Below, piece by piece: positions 8,717-23,255 of a DNA stretch of 32,833 bases (the stretch's first letter is position 1; every line of letters starts with the position of its first letter). The position numbers and the translations under genes were made by a program. The notes under the pieces are model-generated. The model made no database searches. It was not told the DNA's origin and was given only the letters and a program-made list of their open reading frames with translations. The stretch is from a virus: positions 1-32,833 of the IMG/VR virus record IMGVR_UViG_3300047661_000105. One strand, written 5' to 3'.

Positions 8717-9060
8717 CAGCGCAAACCTCCAAGTACGCGGCTGACTGCGCCGCCTGGTAGAAAAGCCACGCCGACTTCGGCGGCGATGTAAAAGACGGCT
8801 GCGATCACGGCTCCCTTGAGAGCCACGTCAGCGCCAACAAAGACCCACGCATGCCAATTAATTGCATAACGAATAAATTTGCCGTCCGAATCGAAGATGA
8901 CCAGGGGATGCGTGATATGCCTGTAGACTGCTCTTTTCCAGTGACTGCGCGGGCGCGCGGTCACGATGGTTGACGACGGATAATCGACCTGGAGTAGCTC
9001 GATATCATCCGACGCCTGAACAATCACAGGCTTCGTGTTGCCGAGGAATAGCGGTTTCAC
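8716..9060 (-). CDS. Small putative membrane protein (114 aa)
   Basis: The first 70 residues are soluble and beta-rich (PVIVQASDDIELLQV, STIVTARPRSHWKRAVYRHI); residues 73-105 are hydrophobic (WVFVGADVALKGAVIAAVFY, VGVAFLPGG) and could form one or two spans. ATG 9060 overlaps the ATPase stop as ATGA. It sits directly after the transposition genes; no function can be assigned. Confidence 0.6.
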   Translation of the reverse strand: MKPLFLGNTKPVIVQASDDIELLQVDYPSSTIVTARPRSHWKRAVYRHITHPLVIFDSDGKFIRYAINWHAWVFVGADVALKGAVIAAVFYIAAEVGVAFLPGGAVSRVLGGLR

Positions 9061-10013
9061 GCGGTCGCCTCACTTTCCGGCGCAGTGTCGTCGGCCTTTG
9101 CAAGCGCCTCTTGCAGCTCGCGGATGCTGGCCATGATGCGTCCGATGGAGAGATAGCGCTGGATCTTCTTGTTTGCGCGCACGTCAACGGTGGAGCGTTC
9201 GATGAGAGAGCGGATCTGCGCAGCGCCAAGGGTGGGAATCTCCGAGCGGATGATGCCGGAGGCTTCCTCCGCCGTCACGGCAGGCAGCGAGACTTTGTCT
9301 GTAATGCGCCGTTCGAGCTGTTCGAGGTTTCCGGCCCACTTCAGAAAGACGCGATCCAATTCATGCGAACCCGCGAAACAGATGCTCCAATGTAGTTCGT
9401 CGTAGAGTTCGCGCACCGTCTCAAAGCAATCGACGGACAAGTGCTGCGCCTCATCGAGGTACAGCACCACATGCTTGCCCTCGAAGTCGTAACGGAGATT
9501 GTTGATGGTGCGGTCGATGCTGGTGTCGCCCATCGAGCCGCAAGCTACCGCGATGCGGCGCATCAGATCGCGCCTGGTGATGCTGGCTCGGCAGTAGACG
9601 CGAAAGATGCAGACTTTGTCAGTGGCCGTCGTGTACTCATGAATCAGCGAGCGAGCTACATCGGTCTTGCCAGAGCCTGGCGGCGCGTAGGCCATCAGGA
9701 TGCAGGCGCGCTCCGCAAGATGCTTGAATACCTCGCGCATCGTGCGGACATTGCCGATCTCGTAGAGTTTCCCGACAAACTCGTCGGCCGTGGGCGTGGC
9801 GTTGTCGTCGAGATACCGCAGGATGGCTTCGGAAATTGTCGCTTCACCGGAGTTCGACATCTTGCGATATTTCCCGGTCAAGAAAAAGTTCATCGTCGAA
9901 TAGCCATAGCCGATGCGGCGTGCGAAGTCGGCTGGAGCCATTCCGGTGCGCCGCAGGTAATCCAGGGCGAGCTGGCGAACCTGTTCGGCGTTGGTGGCGA
10001 GTGGTGCTGTCAT
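9057..10013 (-). CDS. MuB-like AAA+ transposition ATPase (318 aa)
   Basis: MuB-type proteins bind DNA as ATP filaments, choose the target site and deliver it to the transposase. Here an N-terminal helix-turn-helix (about residues 10-50, ADFARRIGYGYSTMNFFLTG) precedes an AAA+ core: Walker A APPGSGKT at 110-117, Walker B VVLYLDEAQHL at 182-192, a sensor-1-like CFAGSHELD near 212-220 and LERRI at 233-237 as possible arginine finger. The gene follows the transposase with a 4-base ATGA overlap (10010-10013), as A and B are coupled in Mu-like phages. The core also resembles the ExeA/TniB ATPases, but the context favours MuB. Confidence 0.88.
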   Translation of the reverse strand: MTAPLATNAEQVRQLALDYLRRTGMAPADFARRIGYGYSTMNFFLTGKYRKMSNSGEATISEAILRYLDDNATPTADEFVGKLYEIGNVRTMREVFKHLAERACILMAYAPPGSGKTDVARSLIHEYTTATDKVCIFRVYCRASITRRDLMRRIAVACGSMGDTSIDRTINNLRYDFEGKHVVLYLDEAQHLSVDCFETVRELYDELHWSICFAGSHELDRVFLKWAGNLEQLERRITDKVSLPAVTAEEASGIIRSEIPTLGAAQIRSLIERSTVDVRANKKIQRYLSIGRIMASIRELQEALAKADDTAPESEATA

Positions 10014-12037
10014 TTTCCCTCCAAAATCATGCGTGCAACTTGCGCCGGCGTCATGGGAGCGGCCGGTGTGTCGTCTTGTGGCGCTGGTGGTTGAGGGCGA
10101 TGCACAACGACATCGTCGATGGTGATGGGGAGTTGCCCGATCTGAAGCATCTGATCGTTGCGGGGCACGTAGCCTGCCGCCTTTACCCGGCGCGCAAGCT
10201 CATTGAGTTGCTCACGCGTGCGTTTGTAGTGGCGTCCGCGCTCCTGCATACTGGCGGCTATTGCATCGCGTGTTTCGGCGTCGTCGGCTTGCCGCAATAA
10301 GGTCTCCGGCTCAAGCTGGGCAAAGACGTAGCCGTCTTCGTCCATGGCCGCAATGTGGTCCATGGCCAGCCGATCGTAGGCCACCAGCACCGTCTGTCCA
10401 GTGCGGTCGTGGAGCTGGATGCCGCTGGCCGGATCGACGGCAACATATCGTCTGCCGGCAAGCTCGATAGCGCATTCGTGTATTTTGCGCGTGGTGCGAT
10501 CGGCCAAAAGCGGGACCAGGGCGGCAGGCTCCGGCGCGGCGGTCTGCTCGGTCCAGCGGTACTTATCCCAGGACTCAAGAGGGCTGAGCCCCTCCATGCC
10601 CTTCACGTCTTTGGTCTTTTGGTGGTAATCGGTTTCGAGCCAAACGATGCACGCCTTGATAAACTCACTGGCCAGCGGCAATTCGGACTCGTCGGCGCGC
10701 CCCTCAGCAAGCAGCTTTTTGTGCCGAATGACAGCGGCATCGCAGCGATCCGGGCGGTGCATCGGGTCAGGGCCGCAATAGCTGACGAAGCTGCGGTCGA
10801 AGCGCTGGTGGATAGTATTGTTGGCGCGCTCGATCAGCTTGCTTTGCGGGTGGAACGGGATGCAGTACTTCACCTCTGCCCCGATTCGTGCCAGGACGCC
10901 GATTGCTTCTGCGGGAATGTCGTCGATACTCCAGGGCGAACCGATTGCACCCTTTCCCACTTTTTGATAATCGACCCCGTTGTCGCAATAAAATACACGA
11001 GGCACGCCGAACAGAATGCAGTGGTGGTAGAGCACCGTCGTGATGGAGCGCGAAGATCCCTCTTCGCACCAGGCGTAGGCCGTAAACCGGCGCGAGCGCA
11101 TGTCGAGCAAGCCGGTGAAGCGAAGCCGGATAGGCTGGCGATCTTTTTTGTAAAGGTTGTCCTGAACAAACACATCATGGATGGCGTGATCGCTTACTAA
11201 AATCTCGCCCGCGGCCATGTCGGTGTAGCCACGCTCGATGTAGGGAGCGAAGATCTCGTCGTAGCTGCGCCGCCCCTGTTTCGACAGCGTGACGGCGGCC
11301 GGGTTCAGCCGCGCAATGATGCGGCGGACAGTCTGATAGCTAGGAACCGGAAGCTCGAACATCTGGGCGCGTCGCTCGATGATCTCCCAGGCCATCTGGA
11401 TGGAGAGATCCTCGTTGACGCAAGCAAAAGCGGCGATGTTGGCCAGTTCCCTGGTGCCTTCGTTTTGCAAAGCCCAGCGCGATTGGCCTTTGTCGGCCCG
11501 CGGTTTATCGGCCAGGGCGGCAAAGCCGCCTTCGCGATAGCGCTTGATCCATGACTTGATGGTGCGGTCCGTTGTGCCGCAGGTTTCCCCCACAAAGAGG
11601 ATGAGGCGCGTCTTCGATGTGATCGGCAGGCCATCTTTCAGGCGCAGATGCCGGAAGCGCTCCGGATCGCGGGCGTATTCCAGAATAGGCAAAATGGCGT
11701 CGTACCGCATCTGGGCAACCGTCTGATCCTCAGGATCGGGCAATGTGACTCGCGGAGCTTCCACGTCGCGCACTTTCTCAAACAGCGGTCCAAGGGAGCC
11801 GTGTGGCGGCACAATCGCCAGTTGCGTTGGCGCTGACGCTTGGGGCAAAGATCCATCGAAATACTCATGGATACACCGGCCATTTACATCGACTTGGTCG
11901 GTTGCGCGCGCAAGCAATTCGCGGCGCTTCCTGAAGAAGGTCGCACGCGACCATCCGGTCCGGCATATCACTTCTTCGGAGGTGAGCCAGTGGCTCGTCA
12001 CCACGAGTTGGGAAGCTACAGTTGCGGCAGCGCTCAT
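10010..12037 (-). CDS. MuA-like DDE transposase (675 aa)
   Basis: This enzyme should cut the phage ends and join them to target DNA for integration and replicative transposition. An N-terminal DNA-binding region (TSEEVICRTGWSRATFFRKR, about 19-38) and a second HTH region (about 150-175, TDRTIKSWIKRYREGG) precede an RNase-H-fold core with the DDE triad D283 (LVSDHAIHDVF), D352 (YCDNGVDY) and E403 (HPQSKLIERANNTIHQRF). A beta-barrel-like domain (about 505-560) and a C-terminal helical, basic tail follow, where MuA contacts MuB. Length is close to MuA (663 aa). ATG 12037 overlaps the upstream stop as ATGA. Confidence 0.93.
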   Translation of the reverse strand: MSAAATVASQLVVTSHWLTSEEVICRTGWSRATFFRKRRELLARATDQVDVNGRCIHEYFDGSLPQASAPTQLAIVPPHGSLGPLFEKVRDVEAPRVTLPDPEDQTVAQMRYDAILPILEYARDPERFRHLRLKDGLPITSKTRLILFVGETCGTTDRTIKSWIKRYREGGFAALADKPRADKGQSRWALQNEGTRELANIAAFACVNEDLSIQMAWEIIERRAQMFELPVPSYQTVRRIIARLNPAAVTLSKQGRRSYDEIFAPYIERGYTDMAAGEILVSDHAIHDVFVQDNLYKKDRQPIRLRFTGLLDMRSRRFTAYAWCEEGSSRSITTVLYHHCILFGVPRVFYCDNGVDYQKVGKGAIGSPWSIDDIPAEAIGVLARIGAEVKYCIPFHPQSKLIERANNTIHQRFDRSFVSYCGPDPMHRPDRCDAAVIRHKKLLAEGRADESELPLASEFIKACIVWLETDYHQKTKDVKGMEGLSPLESWDKYRWTEQTAAPEPAALVPLLADRTTRKIHECAIELAGRRYVAVDPASGIQLHDRTGQTVLVAYDRLAMDHIAAMDEDGYVFAQLEPETLLRQADDAETRDAIAASMQERGRHYKRTREQLNELARRVKAAGYVPRNDQMLQIGQLPITIDDVVVHRPQPPAPQDDTPAAPMTPAQVARMILEGK

Positions 12038-13224: not shown

Positions 13225-13956
13225 GTGCCTAAAATTGAAAAAAAACACGAGTTGCCGGACTGGGCGGTCAAAACCAGGCTAGCGCGCAAGAAACTTGCCT
13301 TGAGTCAGGTGGCCTTCGCTGAAAGACTGCACACGACGCAGTCAAATGTCTCGAAATGGGAAAAAGGCGATTATCGGCCGTCTCCAGGGCATTTTGTTCA
13401 GATTGCTCGGCTACTGGGCGGAGGCGTCGAATCGCTATATTTCTACTCGGAGGCTGGCGTCCCGGAATCCTTCTTTGAGAAGGAAAACTCGCCGATTCCA
13501 TCCGTTTTGACCGATACGGGAGAAACAGAACAGGCGAAGATGAAGAGCGTCCCTCTCTATCATGATGCTGTAGCTGCCGGACAGGCGCGCGTAGTCGATC
13601 CAAAGGACATTGAGGCTCAGGTTCCTTTCCTTTGGCGATGGCTGCCGCGCGGCGGCGATCTGCGCGCCTTTCGGGTTCAAGGTGAATCGATGTCGCCCAT
13701 CCTCGAAACCGGCTATGTCGTGATTGTGGATATATCCCAGCGTTCGGCGGAACATCTAGTGGGCCATATGGTTGCGGCTCGGGAGGGCGATGGCATTACG
13801 ATCAAATGGCTGAGACGGGATGGAAAGACGTTTCTTCTTGTCCCGCAGCACACTTCTCCTGCTTATCAGGTTAAGGTCATGCGACAGGATGGAGATTTTT
13901 CAATTGTGGGCGAGGTCGTAAAGTGGATCGGATATCCTCCGCCGATCAGAAAGTGA
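13225..13956 (+). CDS. LexA/CI-type phage repressor (243 aa)
   Basis: An XRE helix-turn-helix at about residues 15-65 (LALSQVAFAERLHTTQSNVS) is joined by a linker to an S24 peptidase domain. The signature parts are visible: an Ala118-Gly119 cleavage site (DAVAAGQAR), nucleophile Ser155 in RVQGESMSP, and Lys194 in ITIKWLRRDG. Such repressors self-cleave when RecA filaments form, so the prophage should be SOS-inducible. GTG 13225 follows AAGGGAAG closely. It faces away from the early operon and should bind the palindrome at 13182-13197. Mu's own repressor has no S24 domain. Confidence 0.93.
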   Translation: MPKIEKKHELPDWAVKTRLARKKLALSQVAFAERLHTTQSNVSKWEKGDYRPSPGHFVQIARLLGGGVESLYFYSEAGVPESFFEKENSPIPSVLTDTGETEQAKMKSVPLYHDAVAAGQARVVDPKDIEAQVPFLWRWLPRGGDLRAFRVQGESMSPILETGYVVIVDISQRSAEHLVGHMVAAREGDGITIKWLRRDGKTFLLVPQHTSPAYQVKVMRQDGDFSIVGEVVKWIGYPPPIRK

Positions 13957-13962
13957 GATGCC

Positions 13963-14568
13963 ATGAAGGCTGTCTATGTTTTTATCTGTTTGCTTACAGT
14001 TGTGTCGGCGCAATGCCAGTCACCTGATCCGCATTCATGGTCGCAAGAGCCGAATTCGTTTCTTGGTATCACTTTAGGAATGCCTCTTCGCACATCTGTG
14101 GTTGAATGTCCGAGAGTCACTGCATATGGATCTACTCGCTATGAATGGGTTGGTTTCGGACGTCCATGTTTTGAACCGATGCGGAACTTCTACGAAATAT
14201 ACAATATCTCCCCATTTTTCGACATCATCGCCACTGAGATCAAAGGCAACGTGGAACATGTCGGCGCGAAGTTCAATAACGGTAACGCCGCTAGTCTGGC
14301 ATCGATTGATGCTAGCGGCATTGCTGCTGCTCTGGCCGACAAATTCGGGGCGGCTCATTACCACCGGACCGAGGTCGTGCACAGCAAAGCCGGAGCGGCC
14401 TACGAGAATAACCTTCTGTTTTGGAAAGGGAAAAATATTGAAATAGATTTTGAGTCAGTTGCCGGCGAGTACAATCACGGATATGTCTGTGCCTATACCG
14501 TGGCCTATGTTGCAGACTCTTCCAGGCGGCAGGGCCAAAGCCGCGATGCCGTCAAAGGTGTGCTTTAG
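13963..14568 (+). CDS. Exported protein of unknown function in the lysogeny operon (201 aa)
   Basis: The first 20 residues (MKAVYVFICLLTVVSAQCQS) are a Sec signal peptide; the -1 residue before the Cys is Gln, so it is not a standard lipobox. The mature part is mixed alpha/beta (NSFLGITLGMPLRTSVVE, GNVEHVGAKFNNGNAASLAS, IAAALADKFG, WKGKNIEIDFESV), rather like host periplasmic proteins. It starts 6 bases after the repressor stop and should be made in lysogens. The region looks more AT-rich than the flanking head and early genes, as expected for a cargo gene (lysogenic conversion). Function unknown. Confidence 0.7.
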   Translation: MKAVYVFICLLTVVSAQCQSPDPHSWSQEPNSFLGITLGMPLRTSVVECPRVTAYGSTRYEWVGFGRPCFEPMRNFYEIYNISPFFDIIATEIKGNVEHVGAKFNNGNAASLASIDASGIAAALADKFGAAHYHRTEVVHSKAGAAYENNLLFWKGKNIEIDFESVAGEYNHGYVCAYTVAYVADSSRRQGQSRDAVKGVL

Positions 14569-14624
14569 CGGAAGCGGGTTTCTGAATTCTCAACAGCATT
14601 TGGCTGATCTTTGGTAAAAAAACG

Positions 14625-15200
14625 ATGTCGGGATTTTCCTTCAATCTAAGGACTGAATATGCTCTCGCTCCTCTCTCACTGGCAATGATCGAGAGAGTCC
14701 TTGGCTGGAACGAGATCGATCCAGCAGATGTAGGACCAGTGATTGCCGATAGAATCTTACAGTTTGTCCGCGATGGATCAATCGATCGCGATTTCATCAA
14801 GTGGCTTCGATCCCCTGATGCCCCGAATAGCGTAACCAACCTAGATAAGAAATGGGCTGCTCTCCTTTTCGGGAGCATTTCTTTGGTGACCTACTCACAT
14901 CACAACTATCAGCAGTCCCTCGCAGTTTCTGAGGGGTTACCCTATTGGCAATTGGATTGCATGACCGTTTTCTGCGCTTCACATTCCGTGCTCGATGGGC
15001 TTGTCGCGCGGTTTGATGATCCGATTTGGAAATCGATTTATCCTCCCAATGGGTGGTTGTGCGGGTGTGGGGTTTCCCCGATGGTCGAAGAAGAAGCTCT
15101 GGAGGAAAAGGGGATAAACATGAAAGTATCTCCTGAAATTCTCGCAACTTGCCGAAATTGGCTCGATGTGAGGCCAGATTGCCAATACGATCTCTTGTGA
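14625..15200 (+). CDS. Stand-alone protein with Mu F-like minor head C-terminal domain (191 aa)
   Basis: Residues 104-160 resemble the C-terminal domain of this phage's own F-like head protein: LPYWQL, ASHSVLDGLVARFD, IWKSIYPPNGW, CGCGV and EEEA align with LPFWQY, AHAALDQFCARAID, VWRKIYPPWDF, CRCSV and EEA there. The key H120, C146 and C148 are kept. The first 100 residues are unrelated and helical. The gene shares strand and region with the repressor and is closed by the terminator at 15232, so it is probably expressed in the lysogen and not with the virion genes. It might interfere with head assembly of incoming phages, or be a remnant. The ribosome site is weak. Confidence 0.65.
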   Translation: MSGFSFNLRTEYALAPLSLAMIERVLGWNEIDPADVGPVIADRILQFVRDGSIDRDFIKWLRSPDAPNSVTNLDKKWAALLFGSISLVTYSHHNYQQSLAVSEGLPYWQLDCMTVFCASHSVLDGLVARFDDPIWKSIYPPNGWLCGCGVSPMVEEEALEEKGINMKVSPEILATCRNWLDVRPDCQYDLL

Positions 15201-15231
15201 TATTTTAATTAACCATGTTTTGCATCTCCCG

Positions 15232-15261
15232 CCGCCGATCAATTCGAGATCGGCGGTTTTT
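15232..15261 (+). terminator. Rho-independent terminator closing the lysogeny operon
   Basis: CCGCCGATC (15232-15240) pairs perfectly with GATCGGCGG (15248-15256) around a 7-base loop and is followed at once by TTTTTC. It lies 31 bases after the stop of the F-domain gene and separates the repressor operon from the lysis genes. Confidence 0.88.
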
Positions 15262-15549
15262 CTTTGGGCTTCACTCACTCGATCTTTGGCCACTCCTTAC
15301 GCTGGTATCTATCAACGGAAGGGGCGGCGAGTGGGTTTATGGCATCTATTTTGTTCTTTTCCATTGCTCCACAGCGCGGCTTCGCCGCGTCCTATTCTGA
15401 CCACATCTTCGGAGAATGGCACCGCGAAATCAGAGAAAGGATTCGCGGAGAGCCAGAGCAGCGAGTGTCCGTGGGGTGGGTTGTGCGGGTCTTGTAAGCC
15501 AGCCTTCCCGCCCCCGGCCTCTCTATGAACAGAAAGGGATGGGGACGGT
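15262..15549 (+). other. Intergenic stretch before the lysis genes
   Basis: No confident gene. ATG 15339 opens a 52-residue frame with a hydrophobic start (MASILFFSIAPQRGFAAS) ending at 15497, but another frame through 15400-15528 looks equally coding, so I leave it undecided. A hairpin (GCGCGGC-TTC-GCCGCGT, about 15372-15388) is present. TGGTATCTA at 15303-15311 could be an extended -10 box of a late promoter, but no good -35 goes with it. A late promoter is expected somewhere in this stretch. Confidence 0.4.
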
Positions 15550-15846
15550 ATGGCTCAGAGCGCTAAACAGTGGATATTTCGTAACCGGAAGGCCATTCGA
15601 GCAGCAATGGGTTGTCCTACTCCGGTTTGCCTACCGGCACAAGTGCATGTCGTAGTTTATGGTGCGGAACAAACAGCCGTTCAATTCCTTCATAAGAATC
15701 GAGCTACGATTCGCAAGCTGGTGAATGAGTGCTATCGGGAATCAGCTTTGGATCCACAACCGCTAGCAGATGCTCATAAGGAAAAAAGTTTGCTGGGATT
15801 TTTCCGGAAGTTCTTTCGCTGGAGCACGACAGGGGATGTGCGATGA
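15550..15846 (+). CDS. Small protein of unknown function before lysozyme (98 aa)
   Basis: GGGGACGGT lies directly before ATG 15550, and the stop overlaps the lysozyme start as ATGA, so the two are translated together. The protein is basic and soluble (IFRNRKAIRAAM, NRATIRKLVNECYRES, FFRKFFRWS). No motif recognised. Position suggests a lysis-cassette or late-leader gene. Confidence 0.6.
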   Translation: MAQSAKQWIFRNRKAIRAAMGCPTPVCLPAQVHVVVYGAEQTAVQFLHKNRATIRKLVNECYRESALDPQPLADAHKEKSLLGFFRKFFRWSTTGDVR

Positions 15847-16283
15847 AACTGAGCGCGGCGGGGCTGGAGCTATTAAAGAAGTCGGAGGGTTTCCGGGACC
15901 ATATCTATCAAGATGTGGCGGCCCTCCCGACGATCGGCTACGGCCACAGGTGCAAAACCTCGCAGAGCTTCCCCAACGGAATTGACAGAGAAATGGGCGA
16001 GCATATTCTCGCCTGCGACGTCGATGACGCGGAAGACGCGGTGCACCGCCTGGTCAAGGTTGTGCTTACCCAAGGCCAGTTCGATGCGCTCGTAGACTTT
16101 GTTTTCAATCTCGGCCAAGGAAAACTGGCCACCTCGACGCTTTTGAAGGATTTGAATGCCGGTCATTACGATGCGGCAGCCGAGCAACTGCTGTGCTGGG
16201 ACCATGGGGGCAGTAAGGAATGCTCCGCCCTGAAGGCACGGCGTGAAGCCGAATTCAAGCTTTGGCATAAGGAGGTTGTATGA
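15843..16283 (+). CDS. Phage lysozyme, GH24 endolysin (146 aa)
   Basis: It should hydrolyse the peptidoglycan glycan strand at the end of infection. The T4-type catalytic set is present: Glu15 in KKSEGFRDHIYQD, Asp24 and Thr30 before IGYGH. Downstream FDALVDFVFNLGQG and LKARREAE follow the family pattern, and length is normal for the compact group. No signal peptide or anchor is seen, so it would need the nearby holin to reach the wall. It overlaps the spanin-like gene by four bases. Confidence 0.92.
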   Translation: MKLSAAGLELLKKSEGFRDHIYQDVAALPTIGYGHRCKTSQSFPNGIDREMGEHILACDVDDAEDAVHRLVKVVLTQGQFDALVDFVFNLGQGKLATSTLLKDLNAGHYDAAAEQLLCWDHGGSKECSALKARREAEFKLWHKEVV

Positions 16284-19548: not shown

Positions 19549-20968
19549 GGTCCTCGACCACGAAATCAAGATGCCGGCCGTGTTGCAGATGCGGCCCTAC
19601 CAGCAGCGTTGGATCGACGACAACACGCGCTTCAAATGCGCCGTGAAGTCTGCCCGCATCGGATACTCATTCGCAACGGCCTACCGCCGGGATGAAATCT
19701 CAATGCGCATTCCCGGTCGGACAACGACCGTGCTCAGCGCTTCGAAGGCTCAGTCCGTTGAGTTTGTCGAGACTGCGGCGAAGTTGTGCGAACTCATGGG
19801 CGGGACGGCACAGCATGTAGCGAGCGAGGATTTTGTCGATTCGATTGGCCGCATCGAAGCGATTCAGAGCAGGATCACTTTTCCAAACGGAAGCCGCATC
19901 ATCGCTCTGCCGGCCAATCCTCGCACCGCCCGTGGTTACCCCGGCGACGCCGTTCTGGACGAATTCGCACACCACGAAGATAGCTATGCCATCTTCGCGG
20001 CCGTCTTTCGCCAGGTGGCGCTCGGCAATTCGCTTGAAGTGCTGTCGACCCCAAACGGCGAGCAGGGGAAGTTTTACGATATAGCCCGCGATCTGGGCCT
20101 TGATATGGGGGTTGCTCCTGCCGAGCTGCCTGTGAAGGTAAATGGCTGGTCTGGGCACTGGGTGGATGTCTACCGGGCGGTGGCCGAGGGTTGCCCTATT
20201 GACATCGAGGGGATGCGGAAGGGACTCAACGACGACGATACCTGGAATCAGGAGTTCTGCTGCGTCTTCCTCAAGAGCACCGGGGCATGGCTTACCTTGG
20301 ATTTGATTGCCGCCTGTGAGGATACCGACGCCACCATCGATCTGCCTCCGGATTTTCATCCGCGAGGCCCGCTCTATTCCGGCATCGACGTGGGCCGGGA
20401 TCATGACGCTACCGACCTATGGCTTGATGAAAAGATCGGCGATGTGGCCTGGACCCGCGCGATTATCACATTGCACTCCATGTCTTTTCCGGAACAGTGC
20501 AAAAGGCTCAACCCGATTGTGCGCATGACCACGCGTTCGGCGCTCGACAAAACCGGCATGGGCGTTGGGCTTTACGATCTTTTGAACCTTGAGAACGAGG
20601 GCCGCTTGATGGGCGTGAGCTTCGCCGGGTCGAACGATAACGGCGTCAAGATGAAAACCGACCTGGCCATCCGAATCAAAAAACGCATGGAGCAGCATCG
20701 GAGCCGCATTCCCTACGACCCGCAGATCCGCACCGAGCTGCAGGCGGTCAAGCGCCAGGCGACGTCCAGCGGCGTCACCTTCGATGCGCCGCGCATCGAG
20801 GTGGATACGGCTGTTGCTGGTGGCGTTAAGAAAAAACTGTTTTCTCACGCTGACAAGTTCTGGGCAAAAGCTTTGGCTGATCTGGCAGCCGATACGGGCG
20901 CTGTCTCGAACGAGATCACCGTACCGGGCGGCCGCTCTACCTACGCCCATTCAGGAGGAATTCTCTGA
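19541..20968 (+). CDS. Large terminase subunit, Mu gp28-like (475 aa)
   Basis: The packaging motor: an ATPase that pumps DNA into the head and a nuclease that cuts it. Walker A is unusual, VKSARIGYS (35-43), lacking GK[TS] and looking like the lambda gpA version; Walker B is DAVLDEFAHHED (136-147); a coupling motif LEVLSTPNG follows (165-173). The RNase-H-like nuclease shows D283 (SGIDVGRDHDATD), D336 (LDKTGMG) and D438 (HADKFWAKALADL). Length is normal. It sits between the small subunit and portal, and its stop overlaps the portal start (TGATG). Confidence 0.9.
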   Translation: MIEVLDHEIKMPAVLQMRPYQQRWIDDNTRFKCAVKSARIGYSFATAYRRDEISMRIPGRTTTVLSASKAQSVEFVETAAKLCELMGGTAQHVASEDFVDSIGRIEAIQSRITFPNGSRIIALPANPRTARGYPGDAVLDEFAHHEDSYAIFAAVFRQVALGNSLEVLSTPNGEQGKFYDIARDLGLDMGVAPAELPVKVNGWSGHWVDVYRAVAEGCPIDIEGMRKGLNDDDTWNQEFCCVFLKSTGAWLTLDLIAACEDTDATIDLPPDFHPRGPLYSGIDVGRDHDATDLWLDEKIGDVAWTRAIITLHSMSFPEQCKRLNPIVRMTTRSALDKTGMGVGLYDLLNLENEGRLMGVSFAGSNDNGVKMKTDLAIRIKKRMEQHRSRIPYDPQIRTELQAVKRQATSSGVTFDAPRIEVDTAVAGGVKKKLFSHADKFWAKALADLAADTGAVSNEITVPGGRSTYAHSGGIL

Positions 20969-22455
20969 TGGCCGACAATCAAGTTCCATCGCAAGCACCG
21001 CTAAAAGATGAGGTAGTTACTCAGAACGTCCTCTATCTGCACCAATACACCACTTGGCGTCTGGCCCAGGCATTTACCGGCATGAGCGATCCAACCGCCA
21101 TGTGGCAGCAGATGATCATGGATACGCCGTTTGCTGTGCAGTTCTACCGTGAGCTGGAAGAGAAAGATGAAGACGTGGGCGCTGCCATGGAGGAACTGAA
21201 GCTGGCGGTGCTCGATCGAAATTTCACCGTGCAGCCCGCGGATCAGAGCGGCCGGGCGGTCGATATTGCGCAGTTCGTCCAATCCCAGTTCGATGCGATG
21301 CCGGGCTTTGAATCAATGCTCGACAGTCTCATGGACGCCCCTTTTTACGGGTTCTCGCTTGTGGAGCTGATGTATGACGTGAGCGCCGGTCAGGTCTCCC
21401 TGACAGATGCCAAGGATTGCCCGCAGGAGCTTTTCACTTTTGCATTACCGTTCTATCCGCAAATGGGCCCCTTACGGCTACTCCAGACGCCTTACGATCT
21501 CAACGGTATCGAGGTTCCTGAACAGAAGTTCGCCATCTTCAGTTATCGACCACGCGCCCGCAACCGGCGCGGCCGACCGCTGCTGCGCAAAGTGTTTTGG
21601 CCGAGCTGGTTCAAGCGGCAGGCGATGCGCTTTTGGTTGCGGTTTGCGGAAAAGGGGCCTGGCACAGCAGTTGTGCAATATGAGCAAGGAGCGAGCGATG
21701 CCGAGAAGCAACAGGCGCTGGAGGCCGCGGAGGCCATCGTCGAACGCGTGGCCATCGCCGTGCCCAAGAACTTTGGATTGATGGAGGATCTGCTCAAGAT
21801 CGCACGCTCGCAGGATCCGGATGTATACGAGAAGCTCTGCATGCGCTGCGAGTTATCCATCTATCGCAACCTGGTGGGCGAGACTCTGACCAGCCATGGC
21901 GGCGAGGACGGCAAGGGCACACAGGCGCTCGGTACGGTTCACGAGGGCGTGAAGGAAAAGAAGGCCGCGCGCTTGGCCAAGTCGCTCGGGGATGTCCTGA
22001 ACGATCAGATAGTCCATAACCTGGTCATGTGGAACTACGGCCCAGATGCTCCGATGCCTAAGGCTGTATTGAGCAACGCGGACGAAACCGACCTGGGCGA
22101 TCGTTCGACTGTTGATTCCACGCTGCAAAAAATGGGCATGCCCATCACTCAGAGCTACGTGCAGGAGACTTATGGGTTGCCTGAGCCGAAGGAAGGCGAT
22201 GTGGTCTTGACGCCCGTCAGTGCGCCAGCACCAACAATTCCTGGCGAGAATCCTACTGACGATGGGGCTGGAGACGAGGGCGAAGGGGGCGGAGTTCCCT
22301 TTGCCGAATCCAAGGCTCCGCGGTCGGTCATTCACGAGCAGAAAGATTTCGACCGCCTCTTCGATCAGTTCCGCGGAGAATCGACAAAGATCTACCGCAA
22401 TCGCATTCAGGAACTTGCGGCTAGCATGATTGCCGCCAACGTGAGCGATAAGTGA
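20968..22455 (+). CDS. Portal protein, DUF935 / Mu gp29-like (495 aa)
   Basis: Forms the dodecameric ring through which DNA enters and leaves the head. The DUF935 pattern is clear: AMWQQMIMDTPFAVQFYREL with EKDEDVGAAMEELKLAVLDR, DAPFYGFSLVELMYD, RPRARNRRGRPLLRKVFWP, and SIYRNLVGETLTS. A strong AGGAGG precedes ATG 20968. The C-terminal 80 residues include an acidic Gly/Glu-rich linker and a helical end. Length matches the family. Confidence 0.92.
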   Translation: MADNQVPSQAPLKDEVVTQNVLYLHQYTTWRLAQAFTGMSDPTAMWQQMIMDTPFAVQFYRELEEKDEDVGAAMEELKLAVLDRNFTVQPADQSGRAVDIAQFVQSQFDAMPGFESMLDSLMDAPFYGFSLVELMYDVSAGQVSLTDAKDCPQELFTFALPFYPQMGPLRLLQTPYDLNGIEVPEQKFAIFSYRPRARNRRGRPLLRKVFWPSWFKRQAMRFWLRFAEKGPGTAVVQYEQGASDAEKQQALEAAEAIVERVAIAVPKNFGLMEDLLKIARSQDPDVYEKLCMRCELSIYRNLVGETLTSHGGEDGKGTQALGTVHEGVKEKKAARLAKSLGDVLNDQIVHNLVMWNYGPDAPMPKAVLSNADETDLGDRSTVDSTLQKMGMPITQSYVQETYGLPEPKEGDVVLTPVSAPAPTIPGENPTDDGAGDEGEGGGVPFAESKAPRSVIHEQKDFDRLFDQFRGESTKIYRNRIQELAASMIAANVSDK

Positions 22456-23255
22456 TCTCGTCTCAGGTCAAGATCGGCGACACGTTGGCGCGCTACATGG
22501 CGGCCTCGAATCTGCTTGGGCGTCTGCACATCGTGCGCACCGGACTAACGAAGACGCGTCGGCCGATACGCCTGGCCACTGGGTCGCATCTGATCCACAC
22601 CTTCGCGGAAAATCCGGAGAAAGCCAACTTCGATGTGGGCTTCTCTTTTGACGTGCCATCTACTGGCGCGATCGACTATCTGCGCAAGCTGACTCCGATC
22701 ACGAAAGAAGTCTTTGACGGGCTGACGCGGCAGTATCGCAGCGACGCCTTTACCGTGGCCGGTGTCAACGATCAGCGTGTGATCGCAAAGGTCCGCGATG
22801 CGCTTGCTGAAAACATGGCGCAAGGTGGAACACGCGATGATTTTGAAAAAGCAGCGCATAAAATATCCACGGAAGCCGGGGTTGCAGACCTCACGGGTTT
22901 TGAACTCGATACCGTCTTCAGCACGAACACGCTGAAAGCGTATGGCGCAGGCCGCCTCGAACAGATGCAAGAGCCGCACATGCTGGACGCCTTGCCTTTC
23001 TGGCAATACTGGACAGTGGGCGACATGCGGGTACGCCCGGCGCACGCGGCGCTTGATCAGTTCTGCGCTCGCGCCATCGATTCTGTCTGGCGGAAGATTT
23101 ATCCACCATGGGACTTCAATTGCCGTTGCAGCGTTGTGCCGATCCTGGCCGAGGAAGCGCCCAAGGGCAGTGAAGAAGGCGGCTTCGAAAGGTTACCGAT
23201 GCTGACGCGGATCGAGCTTGCGCAAACGAAATTCCATACGTCGATGGCCGCATAA
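22452..23255 (+). CDS. Minor head protein, Mu F / gp30-like (267 aa)
   Basis: GTG 22452 overlaps the portal stop as GTGA. The Phage_Mu_F domain covers about residues 150-232: FSTNTLKAYGAGRLEQM, WTVGDMRVRPAHAALD with H198, and FNCRCSVVP with C224 and C226. In Mu-like phages this protein binds the portal and helps head assembly. Compared with Mu gpF (about 430 aa) it is short and resembles the compact form. A related stand-alone copy of its C-terminal domain is at 14625-15200. Confidence 0.88.
   Translation: MISSQVKIGDTLARYMAASNLLGRLHIVRTGLTKTRRPIRLATGSHLIHTFAENPEKANFDVGFSFDVPSTGAIDYLRKLTPITKEVFDGLTRQYRSDAFTVAGVNDQRVIAKVRDALAENMAQGGTRDDFEKAAHKISTEAGVADLTGFELDTVFSTNTLKAYGAGRLEQMQEPHMLDALPFWQYWTVGDMRVRPAHAALDQFCARAIDSVWRKIYPPWDFNCRCSVVPILAEEAPKGSEEGGFERLPMLTRIELAQTKFHTSMAA

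Follow-up and report, generated by a model that had tools for sequence, protein, structure and literature searches.

Some Mu-like soil phages hold a second, shortened and rewired MuF protein beside their dormancy gene. In the window, by which we mean the whole 32.8-kb record of a Mu-like phage from IMG/VR analyzed here, this protein is the product of an intact ORF, and homology identifies it as a Mu F (PF04233) paralogue of the minor head protein that the same phage encodes (Table 1). We name it mini-MuF and describe it as an accessory ("moron") gene, one of several that occupy a variable slot in the presumed lysogeny operon, whose divergence follows that of the head genes and which may act on phage heads of the same type.

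Results

A MuF paralogue with its own sequence signature

The initial annotation had proposed that the protein repeats the Mu F domain of the phage's own head protein, and this relationship is borne out by several comparisons. Window mini-MuF matches PF04233 across residues 41–150 (E 3e-6) with a score of 28.4 bits, 1.2 bits below the cut-off of 29.6, and PF04233 matches are found for 8/8 members of the mini-MuF family (best E 2e-10). The window protein further matches PHROG 220, "minor head protein and DNA pilot" (E 4e-17), and aligns with the canonical MuF protein of its own phage in BLASTP (E 7e-14, 28% identity) and in a profile–profile alignment covering residues 38–160 (E 1e-28, 99.8%). 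Because the profile alignment begins at residue 38 and the PF04233 match at residue 41, the N-terminal half is related to canonical MuF from about residue 38; the earlier description of this half as unrelated is wrong for residues 38–100. Residues 1–94 taken alone bear a weak likeness to canonical MuF, which carries an extra N-terminal stretch of ~75–110 residues relative to mini-MuF, the exact length depending on whether the boundary is taken from BLASTP or from the profile alignment. Residues 1–37 and 161–191 are particular to the mini-MuF family. An AlphaFold model of mini-MuF is good (pLDDT 85.6), and most of the BFVD structural neighbours that carry a name are head-morphogenesis or minor capsid proteins, extending the Mu F match to the level of the fold; the predicted model of canonical MuF is poor (pLDDT 62.5). 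Foldseek comparison of mini-MuF with the PDB returned nothing meaningful, and the sole PDB sequence match, entry C3HR3_9r_shift4, was disregarded as an apparently designed protein. No domain other than PF04233, whose match stops at residue 150 of 191, was found in mini-MuF, and PADLOC-DB 2023 defence-family HMMs gave no match at E ≤ 1.

Mini-MuF is carried by 12 IMG/VR records including the window, representing about seven lineages. Full-length relatives 37–76% identical to the window protein occur on contigs L001–L007, L029, L036, L037 and L038, and L039 holds a fragment. A rescan of IMG/VR with a wider mini-MuF profile yielded no new members, and the family is rare. Phylogenetic analysis places the mini-MuF proteins in one clade (100/99 support) separate from the canonical MuF proteins of the same phages. 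The His and Cys-x-Cys residues reported as retained correspond to H120, C146 and C148 and are invariant in both groups, whereas residue 117 is Cys in 8/8 mini-MuF proteins and Arg in 38/38 canonical MuF proteins of these phages, residue 147 is Gly rather than Arg, and residue 144 is Trp rather than Phe. These differences make up a fixed signature, CxxH...CGC in 8/8 mini-MuF proteins and RxxH...CRC in 38/38 canonical proteins, and residues C117, H120, C146 and C148 of mini-MuF could form a zinc site. We rejected CGC as a mark of mini-MuF on its own, as the motif PPNGWxCGC is common to at least 105 MuF-type ORFs and CxxH alone separates the mini-MuF proteins: among the matches listed for this motif, CxxH occurs within the preceding 40 residues in 4 ORFs, all mini-MuF, RxxH precedes it in 99 of 105 MuF-type ORFs, and no added family members appear. 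Apart from that search, a scan of genome contigs with mini-MuF returned only a distant canonical-type MuF protein of Serratia, and the best 40 matches of a phage search (85–93% query coverage, 25–28% identity) resemble ordinary head proteins. With dN/dS values of ~0.11 for the window and L001 and ~0.25 for L002 and L006, mini-MuF is, as judged from codon substitutions, under purifying selection; the L006/L007 pair gives 0.78, but from changes too few for judgement.

Table 1. Coordinates of features in the window and of the conserved non-coding element in related contigs
Feature	Coordinates	Strand	Evidence
MuB-like ATPase	9057–10013	-	
MuA-like transposase	10010–12037	-	
S24/HTH repressor, divergent, start of presumed lysogeny operon	13225–13956	+	PF00717 E 1e-15, HTH_3 E 4e-11, phrog_4 E 5e-31
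201-aa protein, signal-peptide-like start, between repressor and mini-MuF	13963–14568	+	phrog_16676 E 3e-10
Mini-MuF, intact 191-aa ORF, Mu F-domain paralogue in presumed lysogeny operon	14625–15200	+	
Mini-MuF part homologous to canonical MuF, residues ~38–160	14736–15104	+	hhalign columns 38–160
Mini-MuF diagnostic motif C117-x-x-H120 ... W144-x-C146-G147-C148	14973–15068	+	
Intrinsic terminator closing presumed lysogeny operon	15231–15257	+	10-bp stem, then TTTTCTTT
Conserved non-coding element, window	15371–15530		
Lysozyme, first recognised late/lysis gene past lysogeny operon	15843–16283	+	PF00959 E 5e-37
Portal protein, in head block	20968–22455	+	phrog_113 E 4e-81
Canonical MuF minor head protein, paralogue of mini-MuF	22452–23255	+	PF04233 E 2e-17, phrog_220 E 6e-43
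Conserved non-coding element, L001	6930–7078		
Conserved non-coding element, L002	8686–8850		
Conserved non-coding element, L006	8690–8830		
Conserved non-coding element, L111	2045–2205		
Conserved non-coding element, L146	2185–2305		

Mini-MuF occupies a variable slot after the repressor

We judged the place of mini-MuF in the seven lineages with readable upstream sequence, and in each it lies on the repressor's strand ahead of the lysis genes (window, L001, L002, L006/L007, L029, L037 and L038). Homologues are found beside repressors in other phages, and with this and the Mu F match at sequence and fold level, two of the three grounds on which the initial annotation would have been refuted did not apply. 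In L002 and L029 mini-MuF and the repressor gene overlap directly; mini-MuF starts some tens of bases past the repressor gene in L038, and lies up to ~0.9 kb past it in the remaining lineages, with small genes in between. For the window, the initial annotation correctly placed the gene after the repressor and before a terminator with a 10-bp stem, but the repressor is not its direct neighbour, as the 201-aa gene intervenes. No convincing terminator was found between repressor and mini-MuF, the two candidates being weak 6-bp stems in L006 and L007, and strong terminators lie 3′ of mini-MuF in the window, L001 and L038. Rightward of the lysozyme gene, the window encodes terminase, portal, MuF, protease, major capsid and neck/tail genes. 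Mini-MuF is encoded between repressor and lysozyme, not between portal and the protease and capsid genes, and across the seven lineages it is never in the head operon, where a separate canonical MuF gene fills that place in every carrier whose record extends there. Operon layout and terminators, read from sequence alone, agree with expression from the prophage, and we infer that lysogens produce mini-MuF along with the repressor.

In eleven related Mu-like contigs, which encode MuA and an HTH repressor, canonical MuF is the only MuF protein. In several of these, the slot after the repressor is occupied by other small proteins that begin with a signal- or membrane-type segment, and mini-MuF is therefore one of several accessory genes found there. 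The nearest relative without mini-MuF (G009) has a MuF protein 77% identical and a MuA protein 81% identical, indicating that a head type of this kind does without it. Among the other slot genes, small proteins of 125–129 aa that share a membrane-type N-terminus and look alike by eye are encoded in L006 (7616–7993), L007 (566–943), L161 (1606–1995) and L170 (2023–2406) and are candidate lysogeny-expressed exclusion genes. A protein similar by eye to the phrog_16676-type 201-aa protein of the window directly follows the repressor in L166 (671–1276), a contig without mini-MuF.

Three further observations concern these contigs. A conserved non-coding element with the core GAGTGTCCGTGG-hairpin-CCCGGCCTC lies past the lysogeny operon and ahead of the lysis genes and is present also in L111 and L146, where no mini-MuF was found; compared with shuffles its fold is stabler in L001 (z -4.1) and L002 (z -3.6) and weakly so in the window and L111, and Rfam gave no match to it. 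Two MuA-like transposase genes, at G024:C1:13728-15632 and G035:C1:25304-27310, contain one and two in-frame TGA codons, respectively, which reflect decay, sequencing errors or recoding. The canonical MuF match in L155 (7954–8725) spans 772 bases, no multiple of three, with an open frame of just 180 aa, and this gene is probably frameshifted.

Mini-MuF is exchanged apart from its neighbours and follows the head module

Between the repressor and the lysis genes, the sole DNA match of the window to L001 is 14621–15207, the mini-MuF gene itself, and L002 matches both L006 and L007 in a 0.68-kb island of 87% DNA identity around mini-MuF. The L006/L007 pair has a dS of 0.02 for mini-MuF versus 1.11 for canonical MuF, with repressors 42% identical, and the near-identical mini-MuF proteins of L002, L006 and L007 are paired with repressors just 32–42% alike. 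On these alignments, mini-MuF has been exchanged apart from neighbouring genes.

We compared pairwise divergence among eight carriers in about five clusters, using the Mantel test. Mini-MuF divergence follows that of the distant head, neck and tail genes, with r 0.89 for canonical MuF (Mantel p<0.001), 0.83 for the neck/tail block and 0.73–0.78 for portal, protease and capsid (portal Mantel r 0.78). It correlates also with genes 17974 and 18841, which lie in the small-terminase region to the left of the large terminase (r 0.57 and 0.55). Correlations with the repressor (r 0.28, p 0.12) and MuA (r 0.49) are non-significant, and mini-MuF divergence does not follow that of lysozyme (r 0.09), MuB (-0.02), the large terminase (-0.03) or the ner-like gene (-0.24). 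Comparison of mini-MuF with MuF on the same phage subsets gives r 0.83–0.91, and when each cluster is represented by a single phage r is 0.84 (p 2/120). Gene conversion with the phage's own MuF was rejected as the cause, because each mini-MuF protein is about as similar to the canonical MuF of its own phage as to those of other phages (~30–33% identical in both cases). The pattern is suggestive, in a small sample, of mini-MuF matching the head type of its phage, and a divergence shared with the head module rather than with neighbouring genes gives indirect support to a head-directed role, although it is equally compatible with a virion part and with an inhibitor.

Discussion

A candidate inhibitor matched to head type

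Our preferred reading, advanced tentatively, is that mini-MuF is an accessory gene expressed in lysogeny whose product acts on heads of the same type, most likely by impeding heteroimmune relatives at assembly or ejection. A more specific version, possible though more doubtful, is that a dominant-negative MuF paralogue, made with the repressor and matched to the head type, sterilises heteroimmune phages with the same head, so that one operon would combine repressor immunity with head-type exclusion. The protein would consist of a MuF core that has lost the N-terminal ~75–110 residues, altered its Cys/His site and gained a new C-terminal tail, and it might replace MuF at the portal or in the procapsid, or bind the MuF or portal of an incoming phage, leaving heteroimmune relatives of the same head type with non-infectious heads. 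The heads of the phage itself would be spared if, as we assume, the repressor operon is shut off upon induction; no self-protection factor for mini-MuF was found. The observations fit, without proving, a decoy that spoils competitors' heads. The MuF-type protein gp7 of phage SPP1 binds to the portal and is taken into the procapsid in a few copies; it is dispensable for assembly and supports the start of infection (PMC6316719), and because gp7 is dispensable for assembly the effect of displacing MuF might be mild. If the reading is correct, mini-MuF would close a gap in repressor immunity, namely phages that share the head and have another repressor.

The main rival, which we consider somewhat unlikely, makes mini-MuF a further virion or assembly protein, an accessory MuF-like factor that in some lineages is built into the head of its own phage and works in the lytic cycle despite its location in the repressor operon. 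Retention of the MuF core and the match to the phage's own head type would be expected of such a protein, and genes in the repressor operon could also be transcribed during infection, yet in all seven lineages the gene accompanies the repressor and never the head operon, terminators part it from the late genes in the window, L001 and L038, and the G009 head type does without it. Exclusion could instead take place at another step, with mini-MuF acting on incoming particles at ejection by binding the MuF "DNA pilot" or the entering DNA; the PHROG 220 description and the support that SPP1 gp7 lends to initiation of infection (PMC6316719) speak for this possibility, but entry of MuF into the cell is hypothetical in these phages, and we regard action at ejection as unlikely.

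A host-directed lysogenic conversion function unrelated to heads would suit a slot that in relatives holds other exported or membrane-type proteins, but leaves the correlation with head and neck genes unexplained and is in our judgement quite unlikely. The overlap with the repressor gene seen in L002 and in L029 raises the idea of a repressor partner or sensor that regulates lysogeny or detects the head proteins of an invader; because near-identical mini-MuF proteins go with repressors that differ widely in L002, L006 and L007, this is very unlikely, and it is further opposed by the weak correlation with repressor divergence and by the use of the S24 repressor type in the window and L038. The plain alternative raised in the initial annotation, a decayed duplicate of the head gene, could account for the truncation and for the sub-threshold Pfam score of the window protein. 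We rejected it as barely credible because the gene is conserved, being intact in about seven lineages, has a low dN/dS (0.11–0.25 in informative close pairs) and bears its own fixed signature.

Comparison with known systems

Both the MuF domain and prophage defence at the assembly stage, exemplified by Tab, are already known; in the literature searched we found no lysogeny-expressed MuF protein and no structural-protein paralogue in a repressor operon with its own signature. Endogenous retroviral Gag is an example of a dominant-negative structural protein in virus restriction, and shares with our proposal the idea that an altered copy of a virus's own structural protein blocks relatives, although it belongs to a different virus world and serves as a comparison only. 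Mini-MuF has the same domain core as Mu gpF and SPP1 gp7, including the His and CxC residues, but is encoded with the repressor instead of the portal, lacks the N-terminal ~75–110 residues, has its own C-terminal tail, reads CxxH...CGC rather than RxxH...CRC, and is additional to a normal MuF protein. Two muf genes in one phage are rare, since the survey of Jamet et al. 2017 counted 614 muf genes in 611 phages (PMC5576092). MuF polymorphic toxins likewise combine a MuF domain with a temperate lifestyle and carry a toxin domain of at least 100 aa after MuF (PMC5576092), whereas the tail of mini-MuF past the domain is ~31 aa, with no toxin extension of that size.

Prophage defences at virion assembly are little known. 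One example is Tab of JBD26, a Mu-like P. aeruginosa phage, an 83-aa protein with no similarity to known proteins that is made by the prophage and blocks virion assembly of relatives by targeting the tail tape measure protein; its gene lies between the terminase genes and an anti-Tab partner is present (PMC10884400). The action proposed for mini-MuF is of a like kind, a Mu-like prophage gene stopping the assembly of relatives, but mini-MuF differs from Tab in being a head-protein paralogue in the repressor operon for which no partner was found. If the proposal holds, it would reveal a simple evolutionary path to assembly defence, in which a head gene is duplicated, trimmed and placed with the repressor.
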